A DNA stretch of 64,000 nucleotides from Pedobacter sp. Leaf250 (GTDB lineage Bacteria; Bacteroidota; Bacteroidia; Sphingobacteriales; Sphingobacteriaceae). The stretch covers positions 62,001 to 126,000 of the forward strand of contig NZ_CAKLBU010000011.1 of the NCBI RefSeq assembly GCF_920984735.1, written 5' to 3'. A program made the translations under genes and the position numbers. Shown here one piece after another: positions 29,776 to 49,176 of the stretch (positions are counted from its first letter, which is position 1; the number at the start of each line of letters is the position of its first letter). The notes under the pieces were generated by a model. That model made no database searches. It was not told where the DNA came from and saw only the letters and a list, made by a program, of their open reading frames with translations.

Positions 29776-31290
29776 TTAATATTTAATTCTATTTTTTCTC
29801 CAATCGGAAGTTTTTGCCACAGCACTATCAAATTTTTCAATGCTGTTTTTGTTTTTGAAAAGCTTCGCTGCAACTAAAGCCGCGATCAATGCTTCCGTTT
29901 CATCGTAATTTTTAAGGCTCTCGGCATTAAAATATTTGCCAACAAAATGAGTATCAAAATCTCCAGACCTAAAAGCCTGGTGCTGCATTACAAATTTACC
30001 AAAACCCAAAGTAGTTTCTATCCCGGTAATATCATATTCGTCGATGGCTCTGATCATTCTTTGTATAGCCTCTTCCCTATCTTTTCCAAAAGTGATCAGC
30101 TTTGCGATCATCGGATCATAATATATTGGAATTTCCATTCCCTGTTCAAAACCATCATCTACCCTTACACCATTTCCTTTTGGCGTTTTATAGGTTTGCA
30201 AAGTGCCAATATCTGGTAAGAAATTATTATTTGGATCTTCAGCATACACCCTCAATTCTACCGCATGACCATTGATTTTTAGATCCTCCTGATTAAAACT
30301 TAAGGGCTCTCCTGACGCAATTTTAATCTGCTCCTTAACCAAATCAATCCCAGTAATTAATTCTGTAACGGGATGCTCTACCTGAAGTCGCGTGTTCATT
30401 TCCAAGAAGAAAAAATCCAGATTTTCATCTAAAATAAATTCTACAGTACCGGCACCAGTATAACTGACCGAACGGGCCACATCTACCGCACATTCCCCCA
30501 TTTTTTCTCTAATTTCTGGTGTTAAAACGGATGAAGGTGCTTCTTCTACCACTTTTTGATGACGCCTTTGAACAGAACATTCACGCTCGAAAAGATGAAC
30601 AATATTGCCATGCTCATCACCCAAAACCTGAATTTCGATGTGCCGGGGAGAAGTTACATATCTTTCGATGAAAACCGCTCCATCACCAAATGCTGACGTG
30701 GCTTCGCTAACTGCCAGTTGCATCTGTTCTTCAAAATCGTTTACACCATCTACAATGCGCATGCCTTTGCCACCACCACCAGCGGCTGCCTTTATCAAAA
30801 TAGGGAAACCCACTTCAATAGCCCTACGCTTTGCCTCGGCAACATCTGTAATGGCCTCCTCAGTTCCTGGAACCATTGGAATGTTATATTTTAGTGCGGC
30901 AGCTTTGGCGGAGAGTTTATTACCCATAATCTGCATGGCTTTTGGCGATGGACCAACCAAAATCAATCCTGCGTCAGCAACCTGCTGAGCGAAACCTGCA
31001 TTTTCAGATAAAAAGCCATAACCAGGATGAATGGCATCAGCACCGGTATCTTTACAAGCCTGAATTATCTTTTCTCCAACCAAATAACTTTGATTTGAAG
31101 CCGCAGGACCAATAAAAATAGCTTCGTCGGCGTAGCGAACATGCAAAGCATTCCGGTCAGCTTCCGAAAAAACCGCTACGGTTTTGATACCCATTTCCTT
31201 AGCCGAACGCATAATTCTTAGGGCAATTTCTCCCCTATTTGCAATTAAAAGTTTGGAGATTTTAAGTTGACTATTTTCAGATGATGACAT
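29776..31290 (-). CDS. accC: Biotin carboxylase subunit (acetyl-/propionyl-CoA carboxylase type)
   Basis: A 504-aa protein with the three biotin-carboxylase parts: SKLLIANRGEIALRIMRSAKEMGI at the N-terminus, the ATP-grasp glycine loop GGGGKGMRIV, the ERECSVQRRHQKVVEEAPS motif, FFFLEMNTRLQVEHPVTE, and the C-terminal domain with GHAVELRVYAEDPNNNFLP. It carboxylates the biotin carrier with bicarbonate and ATP. At 504 aa it is longer than E. coli AccC (about 450) yet lacks a BCCP domain (no MKM motif). The tail from residue 450 is extra. Whether it serves acetyl-CoA or propionyl/other acyl-CoA carboxylase is not decidable; no accB lies beside it. It is transcribed into ribE. Confidence 0.93.
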   Translation of the reverse strand: MSSSENSQLKISKLLIANRGEIALRIMRSAKEMGIKTVAVFSEADRNALHVRYADEAIFIGPAASNQSYLVGEKIIQACKDTGADAIHPGYGFLSENAGFAQQVADAGLILVGPSPKAMQIMGNKLSAKAAALKYNIPMVPGTEEAITDVAEAKRRAIEVGFPILIKAAAGGGGKGMRIVDGVNDFEEQMQLAVSEATSAFGDGAVFIERYVTSPRHIEIQVLGDEHGNIVHLFERECSVQRRHQKVVEEAPSSVLTPEIREKMGECAVDVARSVSYTGAGTVEFILDENLDFFFLEMNTRLQVEHPVTELITGIDLVKEQIKIASGEPLSFNQEDLKINGHAVELRVYAEDPNNNFLPDIGTLQTYKTPKGNGVRVDDGFEQGMEIPIYYDPMIAKLITFGKDREEAIQRMIRAIDEYDITGIETTLGFGKFVMQHQAFRSGDFDTHFVGKYFNAESLKNYDETEALIAALVAAKLFKNKNSIEKFDSAVAKTSDWRKNRIKY

Positions 31291-31342
31291 TTGGTTAGAA
31301 TTTTATGATGTACACTTTCGGATTCCTAAAAGAAATCCATTA

Positions 31343-32463: not shown

Positions 32464-32483
32464 TAGTGTATTTTTTACACACT
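32464..32483. promoter_or_regulatory. Palindromic operator, site 1 (GTGTA-N5-TACAC)
   Basis: TAGTGTATTTTTTACACACT: half-sites GTGTA (32466-32470) and TACAC (32476-32480) with a 5-bp A/T centre. It is about 103 bp upstream of the kinase start at 32586 and is one of three near-identical palindromes in this 5-kb stretch. Confidence 0.65.
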
Positions 32484-33604: not shown

Positions 33605-34294
33605 TTAAAACGATATTTCTTTTCCAAAAAGCTTCGCATACTTTCGCTTATCAAAACGATATAAAGTTGCGGCTCTGTAAGAAACGCCTTTTTGCTTTTC
33701 ATCCAGCTCCTTTAACACACCAAAGCTTACAATTTTCTTTCTAAAATTTCTTTTATCGAGTTTTTTGCCCAATACCAACTCATAAACATGCTGTAGTTGA
33801 GTTAAGGTAAACTTTTCTGGTAAAAGCTCGAAAGCAATTGGCTGATGTTTAATTCTACGTTTGATTTTTTCTAATCCCTTGTCATAGATCTTTTGGTGAT
33901 CAAAAGCCAATTTAGGCAAATCAGTAATTGGCAACCAGTTTGCCCGTTTGGCGTAATTACTTATCGGGCGAAGTTCTTTATCGCCACCCAAACGAATAAG
34001 TGCATAATACGCCAAAGTGATTACCCTTCCTTGCGGGTGCCTGTTGGGGTCGCCAAAGGCATAATATTGCTCCATGTAAATGCCACGAAGACCAGTAAGT
34101 TCATATAAAATTCGAGAGGCTGATTGATCCAAACTTTCATCGGCACCAACAATGTTACCGGGCAATGCCCACCAATCTTTAAACGGTTCTTCATTCCTTT
34201 CAATGAGAAGAATTTTCAATTCCTTTCCATCAAATCCAAACAAAACGCAATCTATCGAGAATACTGAATCTAAATGAGGTAAAATTTGTTCCAA
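33605..34294 (-). CDS. NrtR-like Nudix-domain transcriptional regulator
   Basis: A 229-aa protein with an N-terminal Nudix-like domain (FSIDCVLFGFDGKELKILLIERNEEPFKDWWALPGNIVGADESLDQSASRILYELTGL) and a C-terminal winged helix (LLPEKFTLTQLQHVYELVLGKKLDKRNFRKKIVSFGVLKEL, then GVSYRAATLYRFDKRKY). The Nudix box is degenerate (RILYELTGL in place of REx2EExGI), as in NrtR-family regulators whose Nudix domain has become an effector sensor. In Bacteroides, the arabinose regulator AraR belongs to this family. Given its position between a sugar kinase and the pfkA operon, it probably represses glycolytic genes through the GTGTA-N5-TACAC palindromes; the ligand may be a nucleotide-sugar or phosphosugar. 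Confidence 0.88.
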   Translation of the reverse strand: MEQILPHLDSVFSIDCVLFGFDGKELKILLIERNEEPFKDWWALPGNIVGADESLDQSASRILYELTGLRGIYMEQYYAFGDPNRHPQGRVITLAYYALIRLGGDKELRPISNYAKRANWLPITDLPKLAFDHQKIYDKGLEKIKRRIKHQPIAFELLPEKFTLTQLQHVYELVLGKKLDKRNFRKKIVSFGVLKELDEKQKGVSYRAATLYRFDKRKYAKLFGKEISF

Positions 34295-34367: not shown

Positions 34368-34388
34368 TTAGTGTAAAAATTACACACT
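34368..34388. promoter_or_regulatory. Palindromic operator, site 2, in regulator/pfkA gap
   Basis: TTAGTGTAAAAATTACACACT: GTGTA (34371-34375), AAAAT, TACAC (34381-34385). It lies directly upstream of the pfkA -7-like element TATATTCG, the usual place for a repressor, and also between pfkA and the divergent regulator gene. Confidence 0.68.
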
Positions 34389-34403: not shown

Positions 34404-35390
34404 ATGGAGCCAAATATTAAAAATATAGCTGTACTTACTTCTGGTGGCGATGCCCCAGGAATGAATGCCGCAATCAGAGCTGTTGTTCGTACCGGAATAT
34501 ATCATGGCATTAACATGTTTGGTGTAATGCAAGGGTATCAGGGATTAATTACCGACAACATAAAACCAATGGATGCCCGATCTGTAAGTAATATTTTACA
34601 CTTGGGCGGAACAATTTTAAAAACCGCACGTTGCCTGGAATTTAAAACAGATGAAGGACAACAAATTGCCTATAATAATTTAAAGAAAAACAATATTGAT
34701 GGCTTGGTGGTGATTGGTGGCGATGGAACTTTTACAGGAGCCAAAAGATTCTCTGAAACTTTTGGTGTTAAAGTAATTGGTATACCAGGCACTATTGACA
34801 ATGATTTAGTGGGATCGGATTTTACTCTAGGATATGATACTGCCATTAATACCGTTATTGAAGCAATAGATAAAATTCGCGATACTGCAGATGCGCATGA
34901 CCGATTATTTTTTATTGAAGTAATGGGTAGAGATTCTGGTTGTATTGCCTTAAGAAGCTCGATTGCCAGCGGTGCCGAAGCGGTTTTATTGCCAGAAAGA
35001 GAAACCAGTGTAAATGAATTAATTGATAAACTTGCTTTAGGAGCTGCAACAAAAAAATCATCGAGTATTGTAATTGTTGCCGAAGGGCACAAACAAGGTG
35101 GTGCTTACGATATTGCTAAAAAAGTAAAAGAAACTTTTGATCATTACGATACCAAGGTTACTATACTCGGACACTTACAACGTGGTGGAAGTCCGAGCAG
35201 TTTTGACAGAATTTTAGGTAGCCGCCTGGGTTTTGCTGCAGTAAATGCGTTAATAGCTGGAGAAACCGAGCAAATGGTTGGCTTAAAAGGCAACGAAATT
35301 AAAATGACCAGTATTACAGAAGCTTTAACAGCACATAGCTTTAAACTGGAACCCGATTTAATGGAAATGACAGAAGTTTTATCCATATAA
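34404..35390 (+). CDS. pfkA: ATP-dependent 6-phosphofructokinase
   Basis: A 328-aa protein of the bacterial PfkA type: VLTSGGDAPGMNAAIRAVVRTGI (G14-N20 region), VVIGGDGTFTGAKRF, the PGTIDNDLVGSDFTLGYDTA catalytic block with the active-site Asp, FFIEVMGRDSGCIAL, SGAEAVLLPE, HLQRGGSPSSFDRILGSRLG. GGDGT followed by the T-I-D-N-D motif fits ATP rather than PPi use. It commits fructose 6-phosphate to glycolysis in the cytosol. It opens the pfkA - kinase - gapA operon (2-bp and 7-bp gaps) and has an operator palindrome in its promoter. Confidence 0.96.
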   Translation: MEPNIKNIAVLTSGGDAPGMNAAIRAVVRTGIYHGINMFGVMQGYQGLITDNIKPMDARSVSNILHLGGTILKTARCLEFKTDEGQQIAYNNLKKNNIDGLVVIGGDGTFTGAKRFSETFGVKVIGIPGTIDNDLVGSDFTLGYDTAINTVIEAIDKIRDTADAHDRLFFIEVMGRDSGCIALRSSIASGAEAVLLPERETSVNELIDKLALGAATKKSSSIVIVAEGHKQGGAYDIAKKVKETFDHYDTKVTILGHLQRGGSPSSFDRILGSRLGFAAVNALIAGETEQMVGLKGNEIKMTSITEALTAHSFKLEPDLMEMTEVLSI

Positions 35391-35392
35391 AT

Positions 35393-37244
<1,852 letters not shown>

Positions 37245-37267
37245 AATTAAATAAATATTAAAATTAA

Positions 37268-37303
37268 TAAGCGGCAATGTTTCATAACATTGGCCGCTTT
37301 TTC
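37268..37303 (+). terminator. Terminator of the pfkA-kinase-gapA operon
   Basis: AAGCGGC-AATG ... CATT-GGCCGCTT followed by TTTC, 24 bases after the gapA stop. Confidence 0.8.
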
Positions 37304-37616
37304 TATATAAAAACGTTTTTTACTAATAAATTAAAAAATATTTTACATGCATATTTGGTATTTAATTACCTAAAACTATACAATAAATAACAAAAACATC
37401 TAAAAAAGATAAATTTTAGGAAATAATCACGAATAAATACACTTAACAATCAATAATTTAGCATAAATGCAAGAATATAACTATTAAAAAATTCAGATTT
37501 AACAATTTCTTAACATATTTTAGCCATATATTTGCACTACAATCATTTTACATACCGCAATCGCTCAAAAAAGTAATTGTAAATAAAAAATGACAAAAAA
37601 AATACTTAAAAATTTC
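37304..37616. other. AT-rich intergenic DNA, no gene
   Basis: About 313 bp, strongly AT-rich, between the gapA terminator and operator site 3. A -7-like TATATTTG followed by CAC is at 37527-37534 but without an ideal -33. No protein-like frame and no hairpin were seen. Confidence 0.35.
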
Positions 37617-37637
37617 TTAGTGTATTTTTTACACTAT
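37617..37637. promoter_or_regulatory. Palindromic operator, site 3, upstream of candidate RNA
   Basis: TTAGTGTATTTTTTACACTAT: GTGTA (37620-37624), TTTTT, TACAC (37630-37634), the most symmetrical of the three. It ends 13 bases before a TATATTTG -7 element (37650-37657). Confidence 0.68.
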
Positions 37638-37649
37638 GAAATTTTTTAC

Positions 37650-37657
37650 TATATTTG
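37650..37657 (+). promoter_or_regulatory. -7 promoter element of candidate small RNA
   Basis: TATATTTG fits TANNTTTG exactly. The -33 region has no clear TTG because the operator occupies it. A start point near 37663 is expected. Confidence 0.45.
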
Positions 37658-37662
37658 TAGAG

Positions 37663-37820
37663 TAATAAACGGAACGATGTTTGTTTATAATAAAAAAGAT
37701 AAAAACATCCTTTAAGAAACTAAGGTTTCGGATAGGATTTAAGACAAAGCCTGGCTCATAACAGGTTTATATTTGGTTAGAAAAAAAGGAGACGCTTGGA
37801 TGAGGTCTCCTTTTTCTTTT
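37663..37820 (+). ncRNA. Candidate structured small RNA in the glycolytic regulon
   Basis: A stretch of about 155 bases between a -7 element and a terminator, with no convincing gene. It contains hairpins GATGTTT (37676-37682)/AAACATC (37703-37709), GAAAC-TAAG-GTTTC (37716-37729) enclosed by ATCC/GGAT, AAGCCTG (37747-37753)/CAGGTTT (37762-37768), and the terminator GGAGAC/GTCTCC. The first two share bases 37707-37709, so they may exclude each other. A 12-codon frame starts at 37677 and could be a leader peptide. I do not recognise a known RNA family. Existence of the transcript is inferred, not shown. Confidence 0.5.
37781..37820 (+). terminator. Terminator ending the candidate small RNA
   Basis: A7-GGAGAC, 11-base loop, GTCTCC-T5, a strong stem flanked by A and T tracts, with no coding gene immediately upstream. 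Confidence 0.82.
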
Positions 37821-37912
37821 ACAAAGAAATTTTTAAAAAAATAAAATATACCAAAGCTTCAATTAAGACAGGATATATTAAAATTAAATAGAATAATTAA
37901 TCGGAGATTTTA

Positions 37913-38239
37913 CTATGAAGCAACTTTCGAAATATTAATATTTTTAGTTGCAATTTGATTTATCCAGGTAAATAGTTTGATCTTATTTTCATCATAAAGA
38001 GAAATGGTATTCCATACTTCAAGAAAAACACTTTCTAACACCATTGATGCTTTATTTTGTTCGCAAGAACTTCTCACTATAATACCATAAACAGCAGATG
38101 CATACTTTTGATAAAGTATTTTAAATGCAGCCTCATCTTTAGCCCGCAACCGATCTAAAAATATCTTTTGATCAGAGATCCAAACTTTAAGTTTTAAATC
38201 TGTTTCTTGATCGAGAATAAGTGGAGTAGACAGCTGCAT
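37913..38239 (-). CDS. Sigma-70 region-2-only protein
   Basis: A 108-aa protein whose residues about 28-105 match region 2 of ECF sigma factors: FLDRLRAKDEAAFKILYQKYASAVYGIIVRSSCEQNKASMVLESVFLEVWNTISLYDENKIKLFTWINQIATKNI. The usual region 4 (second helix-turn-helix) is absent and the frame simply ends, so it cannot bind a -35-type element as a normal sigma would. It may be a truncated relic or a small modulator. In Pedobacter-type genomes similar short proteins are sometimes found near anti-sigma genes, but none lies here. Confidence 0.7.
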   Translation of the reverse strand: MQLSTPLILDQETDLKLKVWISDQKIFLDRLRAKDEAAFKILYQKYASAVYGIIVRSSCEQNKASMVLESVFLEVWNTISLYDENKIKLFTWINQIATKNINISKVAS

Positions 38240-38419
38240 TTTATAGGGTATGATATTTTCATAACATCATGCGGCCTATAATGTTCTGGTAATAACCACT
38301 GAATCAAACAACTAATTGGAATACAGCCCAAATGAGTAATTCTTCATAAACACCTTAATCTTTTTTGATCAGAAATAATTAATTCGTATTAAATGCAAAA
38401 ACAAATTAAAGATGATTCG

Positions 38420-48975: not shown

Positions 48976-49176
48976 AAATGATTAATTTTTGGTTAGTTGT
49001 ATTATTAGTTAGGATAAACTTAAATGCTTTTTTCGAATTAAACAAATTATGTTTGCATAATAATTTCAATTCATTTTATAATTTGGATTGATAGTCAGTT
49101 TGTTGTATTTTCATTTAATTAAAATCAGCATTTTACATTAACTTAGTAACCTGATGTTTTCAGCTAACCATTATTT

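Follow-up and report, generated by a model that had tools for sequence, protein, structure and literature searches.

Introduction

How Bacteroidota rank their carbon sources is poorly understood. In enterobacteria, Spot 42 is a carbon-hierarchy small RNA (sRNA) with many uptake and catabolic targets. SgrS is a sugar-metabolism sRNA that acts on sugar transporters. For the Bacteroidota, the available portions of three reports point to few trans-acting sRNAs with mapped targets, namely GibS, FopS and Rfp18 (PMC7366714, PMC11697453, PMC9723704). GibS of Bacteroides thetaiotaomicron is, in the accessible parts of its description, a sugar-linked intergenic sRNA that pairs at the start regions of metabolic mRNAs; it is mostly unstructured and carries the 5′ seeds R1 and R2, and its deletion derepressed a glycogen operon (PMC7366714). 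FopS of Bacteroides is a set of RbpB-associated, multi-copy paralogous sRNAs whose seed is single-stranded and whose terminator is intrinsic. According to the sections available, its seed lies in a 5′ single-stranded stretch, its promoters are canonical, it binds near the start codon of SusC-type PUL mRNAs, and one of its 14 copies is derived from a 3′ UTR (PMC11697453).

Here, a stretch of 64 kb from contig 11 of the 4.8 Mb genome of Pedobacter sp. Leaf250 was analysed (the window, meaning this whole stretch). It encodes a predicted small regulatory RNA behind gapA, which is quite probably a trans-acting carbon-control sRNA of approximately 160 nt, linked to glycolysis and repressing alternative-carbon mRNAs through pairing of the stretch UAUAUUUGGUUAG. 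Among the matches listed in searches of open-licence papers, none described an sRNA of this type from Pedobacter.

The Pedobacter RNA resembles FopS in its multi-copy paralogues, single-stranded seed and intrinsic terminator, and pairing near the start codon of SusC-type mRNAs is likewise predicted for it; it resembles GibS in being sugar-linked and intergenic and in its predicted pairing at metabolic start regions. Unlike FopS, it has either an operator shared with glycolytic genes or an origin in the gapA 3′ UTR, and it was matched only in Pedobacter; it also differs from GibS in structure and genomic setting. The FopS seed and GibS seed R1 are 5′ and single-stranded in the partial texts of PMC11697453 and PMC7366714, whereas the Pedobacter seed is flanked by hairpin 3 and the terminator, a comparison made by position and not by letters. 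The Rfam 15 copy that was searched gave no match to FopS or GibS; FopS has been deposited according to the available text of PMC11697453, and this copy may not contain it. Because the family match and the seed position both fail to agree, the Pedobacter family was not filed with FopS and GibS. One RRM_1 protein, with the same domain as RbpB, is encoded in the Leaf250 genome.

Organization of the locus

The genes pfkA (34404-35390, plus strand), a kinase-like gene and gapA (36243-37244, plus strand) form a row with pfkA at its head, and a terminator-like hairpin with a T-run (37270-37303) follows gapA. The predicted sRNA lies behind this row, which bears out the position assigned to it when the DNA was read from sequence alone. 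The locus opens with a perfect 17 bp operator palindrome, AGTGTATTTTTTACACT (37619-37635), of the form AGTGTA-N5-TACACT. Just 3′ of it stands TATATTTG (37650-37657, plus strand), typed as a -7 box by what we take to be the consensus, TAnnTTTG; no clear -33 TTTG element was seen 5′ of this box. With one mismatch, the operator recurs in the pfkA promoter (34370-34386) and 5′ of a kinase-like gene (32465-32481), in agreement with the earlier proposal that the operator is shared.

Judged from the -7 box, transcription of the sRNA would start at approximately 37661-37663 and would end at the terminator. By fold and alignment of 42 homologues, the predicted RNA was placed on the plus strand at 37660-37819 (folded as 37660-37822). 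Its parts, all on that strand, are hairpin 1 (37664-37685, arms 37664-37670 and 37679-37685; helix 1), hairpin 2 (37707-37738, outer arms 37707-37711 and 37734-37738, inner arms 37716-37720 and 37725-37729; helices 2 and 3), hairpin 3 (37747-37768, AAGCCUG/CAGGUUU with CAUA in the loop; helix 4), the 13-letter single-stranded seed UAUAUUUGGUUAG (37768-37780) and an intrinsic terminator with a conserved GGAU tetraloop and a T-run (37786-37819; helix 5). The operator and the -7 box named in the sequence-only reading were thus recovered, together with four hairpins, the last of which is the T-tailed terminator.

A 12-codon frame (37677-37715, plus strand) had been put forward with the suggestion that its conservation be checked. 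It was not conserved: exactly 12 codons were present in 19 of 42 homologues, in 16 of 42 its length was different and ranged from 4 codons to 20 or more, and the ATGTTT start was absent in 7 of 42. The frame is considered non-coding, and a coding gene was ruled out on these grounds. Within the window, no Rfam 15 family matched at gathering; the 15 matches at E ≤ 10 in 37200-38300 were all far under gathering scores, and a known RNA family was rejected. There was no Rfam match to Spot 42, a family of another phylum, or to SgrS, and neither the SgrS family nor an SgrT frame was found, so the claim that the RNA is unrelated to SgrS in sequence stands. No tRNA or tmRNA was found. Phage carriage was discarded after one pattern gave 0 exact matches among viral contigs. 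A 108-aa frame on the minus strand (37913-38239) adjoins the sRNA; it has no Pfam match at E ≤ 0.001 and bears a slight likeness, as an impression only, to a truncated sigma-factor gene.

Fold and covariation

The RNA folded as 37660-37822 had a predicted energy of −41.7 kcal/mol (z = −4.19), and 0 of 200 shuffles were equally stable. Across the 42 full-length homologues, 95.7% of 1553 cells were paired over the helices, and pairing fell to 36-56% in slid-partner controls. The comparison with relatives that the sequence-only reading had proposed came out in its favour: the hairpins were conserved and compensatory changes were many, with both sides changed in 17 of 37 pairs (150 cells against a shuffled mean of 49). 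One of five covariation measures ('further pair types') was not above the shuffles (33 against 34.5; 442 of 500 as high). Four alignment rows (L001, L002, L150 and L159) that by eye appear one column off in helix 2 were kept in the covariation counts.

Helix 1 was weakly supported, with 92.9% of cells paired and one of seven pairs changed on both sides. In helices 2 and 3, 9 of 11 pairs were changed on both sides, and 92.9% and 85.0% of cells, respectively, were paired. All cells (100%) were paired in helix 5, where 7 of 12 pairs were changed on both sides; the terminator stem is free to change except at its apex, where three pairs and the GGAU tetraloop are kept. Helix 4 was invariant across the 42 full-length copies, without covariation there, so support for hairpin 3 comes from paralogues, in which its variants still pair (by eye). 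A likeness between the gapA terminator loop and hairpin 3 (TTCATAACA) was absent from other loci among 19 listed of 56 and was taken as chance.

The 3′ core is ordered as CAUA-loop hairpin, UAUAUUUGGUUAG, run of A and terminator. The seed was identical in 21 of 21 core rows and in 42 of 42 full-length rows, and it is unpaired in the predicted fold except for its first base.

Distribution of the family

In an initial DNA search, homologues over the full length came from part of the genus, and the conserved 3′ core was more widespread. A covariance model (model R1) was built from 12 copies of the 3′ core in a 12-row alignment, a first core alignment having been set aside because hairpin 3 was out of register. 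The model matched 143 of 145 Pedobacter genomes; at E ≤ 0.1 each of these gave 1-6 matches, of which some are weak, which shows multi-copy paralogy of the FopS and GibS type. Of the genomes with a completeness of 90% or more and a contamination of 5% or less, 132 of 132 were matched. At E ≤ 1e-4, the model matched 105 of 399 genomes of the family, all of them Pedobacter, with 0 matches in 24 other genera. Across the class, 4 of 295 genomes were matched, three Pedobacter and one weak case (G657, 34 bits); the stretch viewed in G657 lacks the seed, and this match was therefore taken as chance and rejected as a distant homologue. These large searches scored few candidates per genome under stricter filters and may lose distant relatives. 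Another genus-conserved Bacteroidota sRNA is Rfp18 of Flavobacterium, which has protease targets in the portion of its report available (PMC9723704).

In the Leaf250 genome, the copy in the window is the only full-length one; contig 5 carries a second, diverged copy of the 3′ core, and with two weak matches to the model the total is four, two of them strong. Neighbouring core copies approximately 0.4-0.6 kb apart were observed in three other genomes (G071:C1:271885/272379, G106:C3:183463/184018 and G146:C49:12403/12823). At two further Leaf250 places, G000:C12:45093 (L221) and G000:C8:89300 (L237, L035), a hairpin is followed by UAUAUUUGGUUAG or AAUAUUUGGUUAG and by a terminator-like hairpin; these may be further seed-bearing RNAs.

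Operator, gapA linkage and candidate regulator

A selected set of 138 distinct copies was assembled by the exact seed with GGAT behind it. The operator, allowing up to two mismatches within 260 nt 5′ of the seed, was present at 86 of the 138, against a background of 47 in 4560 windows and 12 in 828 gene-upstream stretches. Stand-alone copies behind gapA numbered 57, and each of the 57 has an operator of its own; 30 copies lie inside the gapA 3′ UTR without one, 29 are elsewhere with an operator, and 22 have neither operator nor gapA. Where pfkA was seen, its promoter carried the operator at 27 of 35 stand-alone loci and at 6 of 14 3′-UTR loci. Among the copies away from gapA, six loci (L084, L106, L113, L117, L166 and L198) have ahead of the sRNA a gene that we take from its motif to be sugar-kinase-like, and seven (L039, L041, L042, L044, L052, L119 and L174) have another conserved protein there.

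In Leaf250, 23 operator sites were found with up to one mismatch; some of these are chance, since the reversed pattern gave 7. Among 15 that were viewed, some lie by genes that are presumably gnd-, transaldolase- and pckA-like and by a presumed LacI-SusC pair, all named by sequence, and others look fortuitous.

The operator is probably read by the adjacent NrtR/AraR-type regulator (Nudix and winged helix; 33605-34294, minus strand), which is divergent from pfkA and is the obvious candidate. Its domains are NrtR_WHD (8.9e-29), AraR_C (7.9e-16) and NUDIX (2.8e-12), and in these it resembles the NrtR-family sugar regulators AraR and XylR of Bacteroides, as far as the available parts of two papers describe them (PMC4666351, PMC3878776). 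Unlike theirs, the candidate regulon consists of central carbon metabolism and the sRNA. The operator, in a further contrast to Spot 42, is unlike a CRP site and differs from the CRP-like Bacteroides motif given in the accessible text of PMC3878776.

Seed complementarity at start regions

The pattern CTAACCAAATATA-N0-16-ATG was sought in 144 Pedobacter genomes, the distance of 0-16 nt being fixed by design. After the antisense of the sRNA genes themselves and duplicate ATGs had been dropped, at least 75 non-self sites in 47 genomes were counted by hand among the matches listed, the 47th genome being listed in part; the reversed-pattern control gave 5 matches in the 47 listed genomes and 17 in all 144 (hand counts). 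An ATG within 20 nt opened a frame of at least 60 aa at 49 of the 75 listed sites. Of the remaining 26, 20 were viewed, and several resemble by eye longer leaders of SusC-type or hydrolase genes.

Every 9-mer of the RNA was also scanned against start regions from −40 to +12. In 800 kb of Leaf250 (582 genes), the top 9-mer along the RNA was the seed word ATATTTGGT, with 9 start regions against 0 mid-gene windows, where permuted seeds averaged 0.47. In 400 kb of another Pedobacter species (G020), scanned when the number of sites had been seen beforehand and their places had not, seed 9-mers occurred in 16 of 252 start regions; permuted seeds gave a mean of 1.22 and a maximum of 8, and 0 of 300 were as high as 16. 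The G020 sites lie mostly within approximately 25 nt of the AUG, by eye and within the span of the scan. The signal in Leaf250 C1/C2 alone was weak: 6 of 311 start regions matched, a count reached by 8 of 300 permuted seeds, and single seed 9-mers only tied there with A/T-rich words; in C6/C7, chosen with the knowledge that exact sites were present, it was 8 of 259 with 1 of 300 as high.

Allowing one mismatch, the seed complement gave 36 sites in Leaf250, including the two sRNA genes, and the reversed pattern gave 23, a modest excess as long as position is left out of account. Twenty-eight non-self loci were viewed, six sites not being among them; in seven, an ATG within 20 nt opened a frame of at least 50 aa, compared with 1 of 23 controls at 60 aa, and an eighth ATG case (L241) lay inside a longer frame. 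The conserved, accessible seed and the complementary, conserved target sites expected of a trans-acting sRNA were thus both found, weakly so in C1/C2 alone.

In the window, a candidate target site on the minus strand (31289-31300) is a 12-nt complement, TTCTAACCAAAT, that overlaps the start codon (31290) of a gene which, from its sequence, is presumably biotin carboxylase-like. A 9-nt seed complement, CTAACCAAA (48988-48996, minus strand), 12 nt before an ATG, is a further candidate.

Predicted targets and conservation of sites

Pfam scanning was applied to 35 of the 49 targets, apparent orthologues being left out. Eight have a TonB plug with CarbopepD_reg_2 (SusC-type), and pairing at these SusC starts is predicted from sequence complementarity. 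Six are hydrolases, lyases or DUF2961 proteins, six are transporters or binding proteins, one is an FGGY kinase, one a GFO/IDH oxidoreductase, five are regulators, three are other and five have no family. Uptake, transport or carbohydrate-breakdown families account for 22 of 35, a raw share without a background rate, and plug, SSF and MFS targets were placed by protein family and not by substrate. Regulators among the predicted targets include AraC-type, propeller-sensor, FecR and sigma-type ones, and several predicted targets are not carbon genes (ssb-like, H+-pyrophosphatase, fatty-acid hydroxylase and PLD-like). Near-matches in Leaf250 stand at the starts of glpK and of genes which we take from their sequences to be glgA-like, glgC-like and glycerol-facilitator-like; those at the glgA-like and glgC-like starts may be set beside the glycogen link of GibS.

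Of the 49 targets, 36 have TATG at the start and 17 have TATGAA, whereas among 828 background genes the counts are 297 and 95, respectively; the orthologues are not independent, and the context may differ for other reasons.

Conservation was followed for glpK and the fatty-acid hydroxylase, chosen as Leaf250 has the site, with orthologues found by protein search in 33 genomes. A glpK site was counted where 8 nt or more of the seed complement stood no further than 40 nt from the start, and four rows at 44-46% identity were dropped as paralogues. It was present in 12 of 15 Pedobacter, or 11 of 14 if Leaf250 is left out, counted over orthologues and species that are not independent, and in 0 of 11 outgroup genera, themselves without an sRNA match. 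Permuted seeds within the genus gave a mean of 0.44, and 1 of 1000 reached 12. Two of the three Pedobacter without a glpK seed match also carry a second, diverged glpK copy, which was among those dropped. The hydroxylase site extends over 15 nt in 3 of 10 genus orthologues, is shorter in four and is absent in three; the sole outgroup orthologue is without it. By eye, the only changes in the first 12 nt of the four shorter sites are from A to G opposite U, so that wobble pairing could persist.

In five genomes (L301, L307, L345, L352 and L367), a short leader frame lies between a seed-complement site and the SusC-type gene downstream of it. The frame is MMKKNHNTNSP-like in four of these loci and is possibly a small-frame leader under sRNA control.

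Discussion

The seed matches the start regions of sugar-uptake and glycan-breakdown mRNAs, and the RNA therefore probably signals which foods to leave. Stand-alone copies would be transcribed from their own promoter under the operator that also appears to control pfkA, probably with the adjacent NrtR-type regulator as its reader, and in other species the RNA would be made as part of the gapA mRNA 3′ UTR. High glycolytic flux may raise the amount of RNA, with either the NrtR-type factor or gapA transcription as the intermediary. The single-stranded UAUAUUUGGUUAG would then pair from a few to approximately 25 nt upstream of the AUG of mRNAs for SusC/TonB receptors, glycoside hydrolases, sugar transporters, glpK and their regulators; translation initiation would be blocked, and uptake and breakdown of alternative carbon sources would be lowered. 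The RRM_1 protein could assist in this.

The earlier proposal of a sugar-stress or carbon-control RNA survives in its second half, to which homology, covariation, the recurrent operator, gapA linkage and target-site enrichment together lend good support. Its first half fared less well. The same sRNA and the same pairing could serve an SgrS-like relief of sugar-phosphate stress or flux, in which accumulating intermediates induce the RNA and sugar import is cut; the operator shared with pfkA and the copies in the gapA 3′ UTR tie the RNA to glycolysis, and transporters are among the predicted targets. The targets also include hydrolases, glpK and regulators of the AraC, propeller-sensor, FecR and sigma types, a set much broader than that of SgrS or than transport relief would call for, and the small frame is not conserved. 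A sugar-stress function is accordingly considered unlikely, and the predicted targets look more like those of an RNA that sets a food hierarchy, as do Spot 42, whose logic is the same, or FopS.

A decidedly smaller chance is given to an RNA that activates or stabilizes its target mRNAs as a feed-forward uptake signal. Leader opening is a known mode of activation by other sRNAs, and some sites seem by eye to lie in longer SusC-type leaders, well 5′ of the likely start. The clustering of G020 sites close to the AUG speaks against it, as do GibS and FopS, which repress from sites near the start codon in the available parts of their descriptions (PMC7366714, PMC11697453). It is very improbable that the element is an mRNA 3′-end stability or protein-binding element with a terminator, its start-codon complementarity being generic composition, since the enrichment is absent with permuted seeds and reversed patterns, the 57 copies behind gapA own an operator and outgroup glpK starts lack the site, even though 30 of 138 copies are part of the gapA 3′ UTR and two further Leaf250 terminators have a similar AUAUUUGGUUAG upstream.

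The carbon-control reading can be extended, tentatively and with considerably more doubt than belief, to a family that forms the central post-transcriptional arm of the carbon hierarchy in Pedobacter, in which the seed pairs just 5′ of the AUG and the CAUA in the loop of hairpin 3 recognizes the start codon itself; the frequency of TATG and TATGAA at the 49 targets lends this some support, within the limits given above. With such two-part recognition, the RNA would be a generic anti-start-region decoded by seed sites, and the same extension would have the sRNA gene move between the gapA 3′ UTR and operator-driven stand-alone copies.

Through this family, which spans the genus, glycolysis is connected with PUL and transporter mRNAs by way of predicted pairing at their start sites. 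The two arrangements, in the gapA 3′ UTR and as a stand-alone gene, are a natural experiment in sRNA evolution. With a concrete seed, a target list and an operator in hand, post-transcriptional carbon control in environmental Bacteroidota is therefore directly testable.
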